64,000 nt of DNA from Blastococcus sp. TF02A-26. Its GTDB lineage: Bacteria > Actinomycetota > Actinomycetes > Mycobacteriales > Geodermatophilaceae. Location of the stretch: positions 186,001 to 250,000 of the forward strand of contig NZ_QOHG01000004.1 in the NCBI RefSeq assembly GCF_003319125.1, in the 5' to 3' direction. Of this stretch, positions 491 to 3,275 are shown in pieces; the first letter of the stretch is position 1, and each line of letters begins with the position of its first letter. Below the pieces are notes generated by a model. That model saw only the letters and a list, made by a program, of their open reading frames with translations. It was not told the DNA's origin and did not search any database. The position numbers and the translations under genes were made by a program.

Positions 491-669
491 TCCGTCGGGA
501 GGACGATACGGCCTGCCGGACACCCCCGGCGCGGCGGCGGCGTGTCGTGACACAGCTGTGCCCCGATCGGCGTAACCGCTGGTCCGGGGCGTGTGTGAGA
601 CGACGATCAGCGAGGTAAGGCAGCGTCGGCGGGCCGCTGTCCGGTGGCCCACGACCGATGGGAGCAGCA

Positions 670-975
670 ATGGCGCTCGACGACGACGACATGACCAGCG
701 TGGCCGACGGCGGTGCCGATGGTGGCGCGGACGGCGGCGCGGACGGCGGTGCCGACGGTGGCGCGGACGGCGGCGCGGGTCACGGCCCGGCCGACGGCGG
801 CGCCTCGGGTGGCGACGGCGGCGCCGACGGCGGCGCGGACAGCGGTGCCGGCGACGGCGGCGCGGACGGTGGCGCCGACAGCGGTGCCGGCCACGGCCCG
901 GCCGACGGTGGAGCCGGTGGCGGCGACGGTGGCGCCGACGGTGGAGCCGACGGCGGCGCGGACGGTTCGGCCTGA
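670..975 (+). CDS. acidic Gly-Ala-Asp tandem-repeat protein (hypothetical)
   Basis: A 101-residue ORF starting [15 protein letters not shown], followed by about 20 units of the tetrapeptide G-G-A-D with variants such as GHGPADGG and DSGAG. The start ATG 670 has GGGAG five bases upstream; an earlier in-frame ATG at 658 has no comparable site. The product would be highly acidic, disordered and free of Cys, Trp and aromatic residues. Its TGA stop (973-975) overlaps a CTG that opens the oxygenase frame. I do not recognise a function. It could be a substrate or partner of the oxygenase, or the first half of a frameshifted fusion. That the ORF is translated is likely from the coupling and the ribosome-binding site, but unproven. 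Confidence 0.6.
706..969 (+). repeat. 12-bp tandem repeat coding Gly-Gly-Ala-Asp
   Basis: Degenerate tandem copies of a unit like GACGGCGGTGCC run through this stretch, broken by GHGPADGG-coding interruptions near 778 and 892. A larger block (about 115 bases) appears duplicated, since both interruptions are followed by similar sequence. Such a tract can change length by slippage and can also cause assembly or frame errors. Confidence 0.85.
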
Positions 976-2252
976 GCCAGGACCCCGCCGGACGGGGCCG
1001 GCCGGTCGACGACCGGCCGGCCCTGCGCCGGTGCACCTCCCTCGACCCGCGGGTCTTCGCCGAGCGGTACTGGGCCCGCCGGCCGCTGCTGACCCGCGCC
1101 GCTGACACCGGGGCGGACTTCTCCGACCTGCTGGACCTGCCCGCGGTCGACGAGCTGCTGTCCCGCCGGGGGCTGCGGACGCCGTTCCTGCGCATCGCCA
1201 AGGACGGCGCCGTCGTCGACGCGAAGCGCTTCACCACCTCCGGCGGCGCCGGCGCCGAGGTCGCCGACCAGGTGTCGTCGGACTCGGTGCTGCGGCTGTT
1301 CGCCGAGGGCTCCACCGTCGTCCTGCAGGGGCTGCACCGGCTCTGGCCGCCGCTGTTCGAGTTCGCCGACCAGCTGGCCGCCGACCTGGGTCACCCCACG
1401 CAGGTCAACGCCTACGTGACCCCGCCGTCGTCACGGGGCTTCTCCGCCCACTACGACGTGCACGACGTCTTCGTGCTGCAGATCGCCGGCGAGAAGCACT
1501 GGCGCATCCACGCCCCGGTGCACCCGGACCCGCTGCGCTCCCAGCCGTGGGAGCAGCGCCGCGACGAGGTCGCCGCGGCCGCCGGGGGCGAGCCGGTGAT
1601 CGACGCCGTGCTGCGCCCTGGTGACGTCCTCTACCTCCCCCGCGGGTACCTGCACTCGGCGACCGCGCTGGGCGAGATCAGCGCCCACCTCACCGTCGGC
1701 GTGCACTCGGTGACCCGGTTCGCGGCGGCCGAGGCCGCCCTGGACGTGGTCCGGGAGCTCGCCGCCGACGACGCCGAGCTGCGCCGCTCGCTGCCGATGG
1801 GCGTGGACCTGGCCGACCCGGGGTCGACCGCCGACGACGTGGCCGCCGTCCTCGCCGGGCTGCGCGACTGGCTGGACCGGGTGGACCCCGCCGAGGTCGC
1901 CGACCGGGTGCGCGGGCGGACCTGGGCACAGGTCCGCCCGGAGCCGGTCTCCCCGCTGGCGCAGGCGACCGCGGCCGCCGGGCTGTCCCCCGACACCGTG
2001 CTCACGCTGCGCCGCCGGCTGCGCTGCCAGCTGCGCCAGCCCGCCGACGGCCGGGTCGCGCTCGTCGCCGGTCGGCGCCGGCACGAGTTCCCCGCAGCGA
2101 CGGGCCCCGCGCTGGCCGCTCTGCTCACGACCGGTGAGCTGAAGGTCGCCGACCTGCCGGGCCTCGACGCGGCCGACCAGCTGACCCTCGCGCGACGGCT
2201 GCTGACCGAGTCGATCGTGGTCGTGGCCGACGCGGGACTGCCTCCCGCGTGA
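972..2252 (+). CDS. JmjC/cupin-fold Fe(II)/2-oxoglutarate oxygenase, ribosomal-oxygenase-like
   Basis: Homology begins around [20 protein letters not shown] and continues to the stop at 2250. The metal triad is visible as His160-x-Asp162 in [13 protein letters not shown] and the distal His228 in [10 protein letters not shown], as in YcfD/RoxA-type protein hydroxylases. A winged-helix-like C-terminal half follows, as in that family. No ATG, GTG or TTG occurs in frame between the repeat tract and GTG 1272, which would delete the N-terminal domain. I therefore place the start at CTG 972, which overlaps the preceding TGA as CTGA. A -1 frameshift fusion with the repeat ORF is the alternative. The substrate is unknown. 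Confidence 0.72.
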
Positions 2253-2273
2253 GCCGCAGTGCACGATGAACCC

Positions 2274-3275
2274 GTGACGGCACGCGCGGGAGAGGACGGG
2301 GACACGACCGTTCCCGCCCCCCGCTCCCCCCGCCCGGCCGGGAAGCTCGACGACACCCGCTGCTCGGTGCGGGCGGCGAACCGGGGCGACTCCCCCGCCG
2401 CGACCGCCGCACCGGCCCAGCGCTGGGTGCTCGTGGAGCAGCCGGGTCCGTGGGGCCGCGACGCCCTGCTGCAGTCGCGGATCGACCCACTGGTGGCGGC
2501 GCGGCTGGCCCAGCGGGCCCGGGCAGAGGGCGTGCGGGTGCTGCTCATCCGGCGGCCGGACGCCCGCGCGGGCGAGACGGGGCGGCGCTGGGCGTACGTC
2601 GACGGCCGGCCGGGACGGCAGGGCACCTGGTGGTCGGTGCGGGAGTCCGACGCCGAGATCGCGGACGCGCCGTGGGACGGCAGCGTGGGCGAGCGCAGCG
2701 AGGAGCTGACCTATCTGGTCTGCAGCCACGGCGGGCACGACGCGTGCTGCGCCCTGCGCGGCCGGCCGGTGGCGCGGGGGCTGCTCGCCGCCGGTGCCGA
2801 CGTGTGGGAGTGCAGCCACCTGGGCGGGGACCGGTTCGCCGCCAACGTCGTCGTCCTGCCGCTGGGCGTCTACTACGGGCGGGTGCCCGACGACGGCGCG
2901 GAGCTGCTCGCCGCCCACGCGAAGGAGCAGGTGGCGCTCCCCTGGCTGCGCGGCCGCGCCGGGCTGCCGCCGGCGGTGCAGGCCGCCCAGCACCACGCGC
3001 GCGACCAGCTGGGGCTGCTCGGCGTCGACGACCTGCCGGCCCGCAGCGCGACCCGGCTGACCCCGGCCGGGCAGCCGGTCGAGCGCTGGGAGGTGACCCT
3101 CGCCGGGGCCGACGGCGACGTCGTCGTGACCGTGGAGTGCCGGCCCACCGACGAGGCGTTCCGGCTGACCTGCTCGGCGACGCACGAGGCGCACGCCCGG
3201 GTGTGGGACGTGCTGTCGACCGCCGTCTCCTCGGGCGGCCGGACGGTGACCTCGACGGAGCGCCGCCGGCTCTAG
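2274..3275 (+). CDS. sucrase/ferredoxin-like family protein
   Basis: About 333 residues. Recognised by the thioredoxin-like [2Fe-2S] ligand pattern VCSHGGHDACCALRGRP together with WECSHLGGDRFAAN, both hallmarks of the sucrase/ferredoxin-like family; a C-terminal domain of unknown role follows. The reaction is not known. GTG 2274 is preferred because CACGAT lies 7 bases upstream, a leaderless-type -10 position; GTG 2259 is an in-frame alternative. It starts within 25 bases of the oxygenase stop, so readthrough from that gene is possible. Its TAG stop shares the palindrome CTAG with the stop of the convergent gene. Confidence 0.85.
   Translation: MTARAGEDGDTTVPAPRSPRPAGKLDDTRCSVRAANRGDSPAATAAPAQRWVLVEQPGPWGRDALLQSRIDPLVAARLAQRARAEGVRVLLIRRPDARAGETGRRWAYVDGRPGRQGTWWSVRESDAEIADAPWDGSVGERSEELTYLVCSHGGHDACCALRGRPVARGLLAAGADVWECSHLGGDRFAANVVVLPLGVYYGRVPDDGAELLAAHAKEQVALPWLRGRAGLPPAVQAAQHHARDQLGLLGVDDLPARSATRLTPAGQPVERWEVTLAGADGDVVVTVECRPTDEAFRLTCSATHEAHARVWDVLSTAVSSGGRTVTSTERRRL

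Follow-up and report, generated by a model that had tools for sequence, protein, structure and literature searches.

The window analysed here, a 64-kb stretch of the genome of Blastococcus sp. TF02A-26 (G000:C44:186001-250000), contains three neighbouring genes for a Gly-Ala-Asp repeat peptide, a JmjC-type Fe(II)/2-oxoglutarate (2OG) oxygenase, and a sucrase/ferredoxin-like (Suc_Fer-like) protein. A functional linkage of the three is strongly supported, as their adjacency is conserved in relatives, also in divergent cassettes that carry another Asp repeat. We consider it probable that they form a cassette similar to those for ribosomally synthesized and post-translationally modified peptides (RiPPs), in which the oxygenase, a relative of human NO66, would hydroxylate the repeat, most likely at Asp, with the Suc_Fer-like protein as its partner and a metal-binding peptide as the product; metal binding is the weakest step of this proposal. 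The gene of the presumed precursor adjoins that of the presumed modifying enzyme, and a conserved leader precedes a variable core, both as in RiPPs, with the leader motif missing from one clade of 12. A ribosomal peptide with an adjacent oxygenase that bears a domain resembling a RiPP recognition element (RRE) is of a kind already known, and a housekeeping metal polymer as its product would go beyond a variant of that kind. In the open-access literature, to which the search was confined (subscription journals lay outside its scope), we found no description of the cassette, and the peptide strings occurred in no paper. Work by Xia et al. in JACS in 2025 reportedly concerns macrocyclisation by 2OG-dioxygenases in RiPPs, and an overlap with the present cassette is possible.

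Co-occurrence of peptide and oxygenase in relatives, which the preliminary description of the window had set beforehand as the test that could refute their connection, was found in nearly all loci read. The loci read comprised the 30 best of a search among relatives, the 30 best plus 40 chosen ones of a search across the class, and the 80 best of a search of the GTDB collection; the sets overlap, with 138 distinct peptides among 155, and the relatives are not independent of each other. Where the oxygenase was at least 45% identical and 600 bp or more of upstream sequence could be read, the repeat peptide was encoded directly upstream in 143 of 145 loci. Among 59 relative genomes, 45 had the oxygenase, and the peptide preceded it in 28 of the 30 best loci, the other two (L025 and L038) being contig ends at most 182 bp from the oxygenase match; in L033, the peptide was found after an alternative start had been allowed. 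Likewise, 73 of the best 80 of more than 560 matches in the GTDB collection had the peptide, and in the other seven (L109, L115, L116, L117, L119, L126, and L130) the contig ended within 182 bp of the match. The genera with the cassette at the GTDB loci include Geodermatophilus, Blastococcus, Modestobacter, Klenkia, Actinokineospora, Umezawaea, Actinoplanes (Paractinoplanes), Kribbella, Saccharopolyspora, Motilibacter, and Allobranchiibius. At one locus (L165, genome G305), the repeat peptide is intact and the match to the neighbouring oxygenase gene is split in two, with a different frame for each piece; either the gene is broken or the sequence contains an error, and this locus was excluded from the tree and from the leader/C-terminal comparison described below.

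The linkage was also apparent when the peptide served as the query. A profile of 25 peptide N-termini, all of which came from beside oxygenases, was searched at E <= 1e-6 against 296 class genomes, with at most 21 first-look candidates scored per genome. The profile hit 73 times; of the 41 genomes concerned, 13 had supplied rows to it and 28 had not. Every one of the 73 hits was on the same strand as and directly upstream of a close oxygenase, defined as a match of at least 250 bits, with gaps of -1 to 446 bp. No hit was obtained in the 247 class genomes without a close oxygenase. Eight of the 49 genomes with one gave no profile hit: G076 and G224 carry a different Asp repeat, G080, G082, G212, and G319 have GAD repeats below the profile threshold, and G125 and G304 lack such a repeat.

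The peptide itself has an extreme composition, with 43 Gly, 22 Ala, 22 Asp, 5 Ser, 2 His, and no Cys among its 101 residues and a net charge of -22 (median of the peptides -20). No other open reading frame (ORF) of at least 35 aa in the 64 kb, whichever strand is read, exceeds a Gly, Ala, and Asp fraction of 0.55. When a leader-like start was required as well, this composition was found in 138 of 167 upstream stretches; as controls for chance, the reverse strand of these stretches gave 1 of 167 and the downstream stretches 0 of 176. In the window, agreement between units 12 nt apart was 0.84, 0.76, and 0.51 at codon positions 1, 2, and 3, and the corresponding values for the loci with an oxygenase at least 45% identical were 0.70, 0.67, and 0.47. 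As Gly, Ala, and Asp codons all start with G, position 1 is uninformative, and the coding argument therefore rests on the contrast between positions 2 and 3, which shows, at the level of sequence, that changes in the peptide gene gather at silent sites. A frame artefact of GC-rich DNA was rejected on account of this contrast, the ribosome-binding site, and the orthologues. The window peptide matched no known family in Pfam or NCBIfam (E up to 1), and neither did three further peptides in Pfam and four in NCBIfam (E up to 10). An existing name for such peptides in public records was likewise not confirmed by a literature search. In relatives, a script chose the peptide starts, which left a few of the peptides too short (e.g., L055 and L124). 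In Geodermatophilus ruber (L078, 2615-3004), the repeat is interrupted by the non-repeat insert LIDKVRDKVRDVIGGD, which could form an amphipathic helix.

In 11 divergent cassettes (L163, L164, L166-L168, L171-L174, L180, and L185), whose oxygenases are 34-43% identical, repeats such as DADGTDGDATDTTDGD take the place of GGAD, and L173 has a core in which EGPADS is mixed with DGDATDG. The core can switch wholly from GGAD to TDGD/DATD, with Asp and the leader motif retained: these TDG-type leaders read LSDDDMTT, LNDDDMET, or LGDDEITT. When the core types were placed as labels on a tree of 85 oxygenase rows (with L164 mislabelled as GAD), 6 changes were required, compared to a mean of 23 after shuffling. 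JmjC enzymes are known to hydroxylate Asn, Asp, His, Arg, Lys, and Orn. When the core was taken as the sequence after residue 12 of the script-chosen start, Asp, Gly, and Ala were present in all 138 distinct cores, Cys was present in none, and Asn was missing from 110; judged by these sequences, Asp is the only one of the known target residues that occurs in every core.

For the oxygenase, Pfam, the structure model, and the alignment agree on a JmjC double-stranded beta-helix with the HxD...H signature of ROX ribosomal oxygenases. The triad had already been read as intact from the window, and H160, D162, and H228 are indeed invariant in the alignment of 155 rows, in which the window is present twice, as itself and as L009. 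An AlphaFold2 model of residues 1-426 (mean pLDDT, the predicted local distance difference test score, 85.8) was closest to NO66 (Z 27.7-29.3 over 383-393 residues, 24-25% identity) and MINA53 (Z up to 27.7), followed by YcfD and its R. marinus relative (18.7-20.2), B. subtilis YxbC (about 18.8), and FIH (up to 13.5). With NO66 4y4r (Z 29.3), the alignment extended across residues 13-423 and included the middle (dimerisation) region and the C-terminal winged helix. A profile search against PDB sequences gave the same nearest relatives (NO66 2.5e-32, MINA53 6e-27, R. marinus YcfD-like protein 7.9e-14, YxbC 4.6e-10, and E. coli YcfD 7e-8), and this actinobacterial group matches human NO66 and MINA53 much more strongly than bacterial YcfD among solved structures. 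The enzyme had at first been likened to the YcfD/FIH class; both comparisons place it nearest to NO66 and MINA53 instead, and an FIH-type enzyme was rejected in view of the Z scores of NO66 and FIH. NO66 (RIOX1) and MINA53 (RIOX2), which are ribosomal protein histidyl hydroxylases, share the whole-length predicted fold, with the JmjC domain, a helical middle region, and a C-terminal winged helix; in contrast to them, the present enzyme is bacterial, has a dedicated repeat peptide encoded next door, and has a neighbour in which His is not present in every core. YcfD/RoxA and the R. marinus YcfD-like protein (ribosomal L16 arginyl hydroxylases) belong to the same ROX family, YcfD being more distant by profile than NO66 and acting on a ribosomal protein according to the titles of its structure entries. 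The genomic context of the present oxygenase points to a substrate other than a ribosomal protein.

A route by which the oxygenase could recognize the peptide is suggested by its C-terminal domain and the leader. Modelled alone, the domain matched best the winged helix of NO66 and MINA53 (Z 10.0-11.8), followed by PqqD 5sxy (81 residues, 2.3 Å, 20% identity) and then by the RiPP leader-binding domains of TbiB1 with leader, PbtF, MccB, TigE, ThcOx, McbB, TruD, and MibB (Z 5.7-6.7); as VIA-align Z scores under 8 may reflect a mere common arrangement, the RRE resemblance, with its Z scores of 5.7-7.8, is to be read with this in mind. PF08007 JmjC proteins can bear RRE-like domains, and bacterial homologues of about 30% identity occur in RiPP-like contexts, as stated by Bregman et al. 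(2025; PMC12710340); section 6 of that paper names no repeat precursor, Suc_Fer protein, or product, in which the present cassette differs. The strict leader motif was found in 122 of the 142 peptides whose oxygenase has the full C-terminal domain (112 of 131 GAD-type and 10 of 11 TDG-type), and most of the 20 misses carry a looser motif by eye. Conversely, where GAD-type oxygenases lack at least six of residues 397-407, the strict motif was present in 0 of 12 peptides; since all twelve belong to one clade, this co-change of leader and domain may be a single event.

This last point weighs against our proposal, as do several others. Chains that are not RREs rank among the RREs in the structure comparison (KICSTOR-GATOR1 6.8, the carbamoyltransferases GdmN/NovN 5.9-6.5, and PKMT 5.0-5.4), the Foldseek E values for RRE chains are 0.24 or worse, and Pfam detects no PqqD domain in 44 sequences. 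Two close oxygenases (L149 and L151) have no repeat peptide, 13 of the 144 GAD-type loci with room have no adjacent Suc_Fer gene, and, of seven genomes with such a Suc_Fer-less cassette, four have PF06999 elsewhere and three have no match. By eye, no protease or transporter was recognized in the incomplete neighbour lists of 7 loci, for which no family search was made, unlike the situation in most secreted RiPPs; a gene located elsewhere might do the work of either. Finally, the modification of the peptide is a predicted one. At L149 and L151 (genus f43 g81), the oxygenases are 47% identical, Suc_Fer is not adjacent and is encoded elsewhere in both genomes, and a short acidic ORF that ends with DDPELxGADLxEDQ...GPTxEPGA lies upstream; the substrate may have been replaced here.

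To the same side belongs the fact that NO66 and MINA53, the nearest solved relatives, are histidine hydroxylases according to their structure entry titles, and that His occurs in 112 of the 138 cores, often as GGHDGG. It is therefore conceivable that the same cassette hydroxylates His, as NO66 and MINA53 do, or another repeat residue in place of Asp. We nevertheless consider this unlikely, since 26 of the 138 cores are free of His, including those of all but one of the 11 TDG-type peptides, which still have their oxygenase and Suc_Fer neighbours, and since the window peptide has 22 Asp and only 2 His.

The preliminary description had left open whether the peptide is a substrate or a regulator of the oxygenase, and the substrate half of that proposal is now the better supported one, by the leader with its changing cores, the RRE-like domain, and the published JmjC hydroxylases of RiPPs. 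As a regulator, the peptide would bind the oxygenase in the manner of a decoy or pseudo-substrate and either inhibit or stabilise it, and the enzyme would have its true target elsewhere, for example in a ribosomal protein. This agrees with the ROX-family fold, with a translational overlap of the two genes that would couple their output, and with a near-universal presence in the family, as for a housekeeping enzyme. A long core of about 20 repeated units and its wholesale change with Asp kept would fit a multi-site substrate better, which is an argument and nothing else, and the architecture of leader and core is that of RiPPs; a regulatory peptide is accordingly rather improbable in our view.

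The third protein, first described as a [2Fe-2S] thioredoxin-like protein, is now more precisely assigned to the Suc_Fer type (PF06999, 64.3 bits at a curated cut-off of 34.9). A Suc_Fer homologue follows next on the same strand in 141 of the 154 peptide loci with room (131 of 144 GAD-type, in which the hybrid core of L174 was counted as GAD, and 10 of 10 TDG-type). Such a gene follows the oxygenase in 0 of 14 loci that have upstream sequence and no repeat peptide, and the nine further loci without a found peptide that do have it are contig-end cases. The loci without an adjacent copy, together with the three genomes without any PF06999 match, indicate that Suc_Fer is not indispensable. C155, C163, C164, and H187 are invariant in 149 of 149 rows, two of the Cys being in Cx8C spacing, and a sequence search found no relative among solved structures. 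Apd1, a protein of the same PF06999 family, has a second His that would presumably correspond to D191 in the window, and this column is not among the conserved ones. Passages of PMC11126956 describe Apd1 as a 2Cys2His thioredoxin-like ferredoxin, of which the yeast protein binds a [2Fe-2S] cluster through these ligands. The present protein resembles Apd1 in its invariant Cx8C Cys pair and one His and differs at the presumed position of the second His.

Taken together, we propose that the small peptide would be translated first and that the oxygenase would bind the leader of the peptide (motif hydrophobic-x-DDD-M/I-x-S/T) with its own C-terminal, RRE-like winged-helix domain. Its JmjC domain, which is NO66-like, would then progress along the repeat and hydroxylate side chains, most likely those of the Asp at every fourth residue, to beta-hydroxy-Asp. 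The Suc_Fer-like [2Fe-2S] protein would be a dedicated partner, most likely an electron donor that keeps the oxygenase iron reduced or reduces product-bound metal. An acidic hydroxy-Asp polymer suited to the binding of metal ions inside the cell would result, as a housekeeping factor and not an antibiotic. Two considerations led us to propose metal binding: siderophores use beta-hydroxyaspartate as an iron ligand, and an iron-sulphur protein is the predicted partner. More tentatively, and as a fairly unlikely possibility, the polymer could serve in metal handling as a housekeeping function: the [2Fe-2S] protein would load, reduce, or release iron or another metal at the beta-hydroxyaspartates formed by the oxygenase, and the amount of modified polymer would reflect oxygen, iron, and 2-oxoglutarate.

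The distribution agrees with a housekeeping role within the family of the window, where the pattern resembles that of an inherited function more than that of an antibiotic with sporadic occurrence; in the class as a whole, the cassette has a patchy distribution. Among 93 family genomes at least 95% complete, 92 had the oxygenase and 89 the peptide (E <= 1e-3 for the peptide); G009 had neither, and G628, G637, and G659 had, at this threshold, the oxygenase only. Four peptide hits were, by eye, on another contig than the oxygenase. Two of them, at contig edges (G019:C23 and G018:C224), probably reflect a gene split across contigs, and the others, one each in G024 and G635, are weak (E 1.3e-4 and 1.5e-4). 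In a phylum-wide draw of 296 genomes, 10 had the peptide, all from the class of the window, and a tblastn search of plasmids with the oxygenase gave distant matches only (best 36.8% identity). An assembly titled Bacillus sp. AZ43, an unverified organism (L082, SPQJ01000046.1), contains a Geodermatophilaceae-type cassette with an oxygenase 79% identical and is mislabelled or contaminated.

This distribution, the extreme composition, and the strongly negative charge would also suit a structural or stress protein, such as a disordered acidic protectant or a calcium binder, whose properties the oxygenase and Suc_Fer merely tune. This alternative involves the same chemistry as our proposal in all data presented here and differs in purpose, and we consider it very improbable. 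An ordinary ribosomal oxygenase beside an unrelated or untranslated repeat ORF, which the PF08007 assignment, the structural similarity to NO66 and YcfD, and the close oxygenases at L149 and L151 might suggest, is hardly tenable in view of the adjacency of all 73 profile hits, the 143 of 145 loci, the codon-position pattern, and the conserved ribosome-binding site and leader.

Oxygenases of the JmjC type that act on ribosomal peptides are known from biphenomycin-like RiPP clusters, where, in the passages available to us, the JmjC/cupin-like enzymes BipG/BpmG and PbsQ hydroxylate Orn in a ribosomal precursor peptide (PMC12707348, PMC12257519). These systems and the proposed cassette have in common a JmjC-type oxygenase and a ribosomal precursor peptide. 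They differ in that, according to the same passages, the target Orn is made from Arg and the clusters contain a multinuclear non-haem iron-dependent oxidative enzyme (MNIO), a B12-dependent radical S-adenosylmethionine enzyme (B12-rSAM), an arginase, and a protease; the passages mention no repeat precursor or Suc_Fer protein.

The cassette is near-universal in one family and is present in many actinobacterial families. It appears to hold the gene of an enzyme and that of the enzyme's substrate side by side, so that the identity of the substrate, on which studies of JmjC oxygenases often come to a halt, becomes directly addressable. A repeat that is hydroxylated would be an undescribed ribosomal peptide; the core of the window peptide has about eighteen candidate Asp sites at regular intervals, and the peptide might play a part in the physiology of metals or oxygen. 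The product would then possibly be an intracellular peptide metal buffer, of which we know no counterpart. The findings are also relevant to the human ribosomal oxygenases NO66 and MINA53 as the nearest solved relatives of these bacterial enzymes, which, if the metal-handling reading is right, would share their fold and a leader-type domain with peptide-tailoring enzymes.

The arrangement of the three genes is given in Table 1. It agrees with the three successive plus-strand ORFs first described, which are now placed at 670-975, in a frame ending at 2252, and at 2259-3275, and the peptide length of 101 residues stands as well; position 591, from which the span 591-3275 had been counted, is merely the mechanical start of the oxygenase reading frame. 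An oxygenase start at GTG 591 was rejected, as the 127 codons of 591-971 first cover sequence ahead of the peptide gene and then pass through that gene in another frame. ATG 670 as the peptide start is supported by most relatives, whose peptides begin with an identical MALDD or a close variant. For the oxygenase, there is no ATG, GTG, or TTG near the conserved start of its frame, and the frame probably opens at CTG 972, which overlaps the TGA of the peptide gene (CTGA), the exact start being unproved. The same CTGA overlap was found in 86 of the 144 peptide-bearing loci with an oxygenase at least 45% identical, and the remainder have ATG or GTG at or just past the peptide end.

Table 1. Features of the peptide-oxygenase-Suc_Fer cassette, with positions counted from the first nucleotide of the window.
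Feature	Position	Strand	Basis
GGGAG, likely ribosome-binding site of the peptide gene	660..664	+	Direct reading; purine-rich stretch at the same place in 12 loci
Gly-Ala-Asp repeat peptide, 101 aa	670..975	+	ATG 670, stop 973-975; C-terminal end DGGADGSA
Leader region, motif hydrophobic-x-DDD-M-x-S/T	670..702	+	Frequency of the strict motif among relatives
12-nt (4-aa) tandem repeat, peptide core	703..965	+	Tandem Repeats Finder: period 12, 21.7 copies, 70% matches
JmjC-type Fe(II)/2OG oxygenase, NO66-like	972..2252	+	PF08007, E 9e-29; CTG 972 as presumed start
H160-Y-D162 of the metal triad	1449..1457	+	H160 and D162 invariant in 155/155 aligned rows
H228, third metal ligand	1653..1655	+	Invariant in 155/155 rows; aligns with NO66
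C-terminal winged-helix domain, predicted RRE-like fold, proposed leader-binding site	1947..2249	+	Model pLDDT 84.9; PqqD 5sxy Z 7.8; Foldseek E non-significant
Suc_Fer-like protein, predicted [2Fe-2S]	2259..3275	+	PF06999, E 2e-17; alternative in-frame start GTG 2274

Upstream of the cassette, at about 1-445 on the minus strand, a divergent neighbour resembles by eye a Y-family DNA polymerase of the DinB/ImuB type, and a similar ORF is present in L067. Because this gene is divergent, its promoter and that of the cassette may both lie in the sequence up to 669.

More distant JmjC genes were found in other settings. In eight loci of family f29 (L169, L175, L176, L177, and L181-L184), JmjC genes 30-36% identical lie behind a conserved ORF of 35-37 aa (MDPIEVEVEDLAEVTSRDITAGGDSDGTDSSSDFI type), with a prolyl-oligopeptidase-like gene by eye and no Suc_Fer gene alongside; these loci may represent another RiPP family, one whose core contains Asp. 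At L178, YcaO-like and TfuA-like neighbours, again recognized by eye, lie upstream of a distant JmjC gene, which is another setting of the RiPP type.

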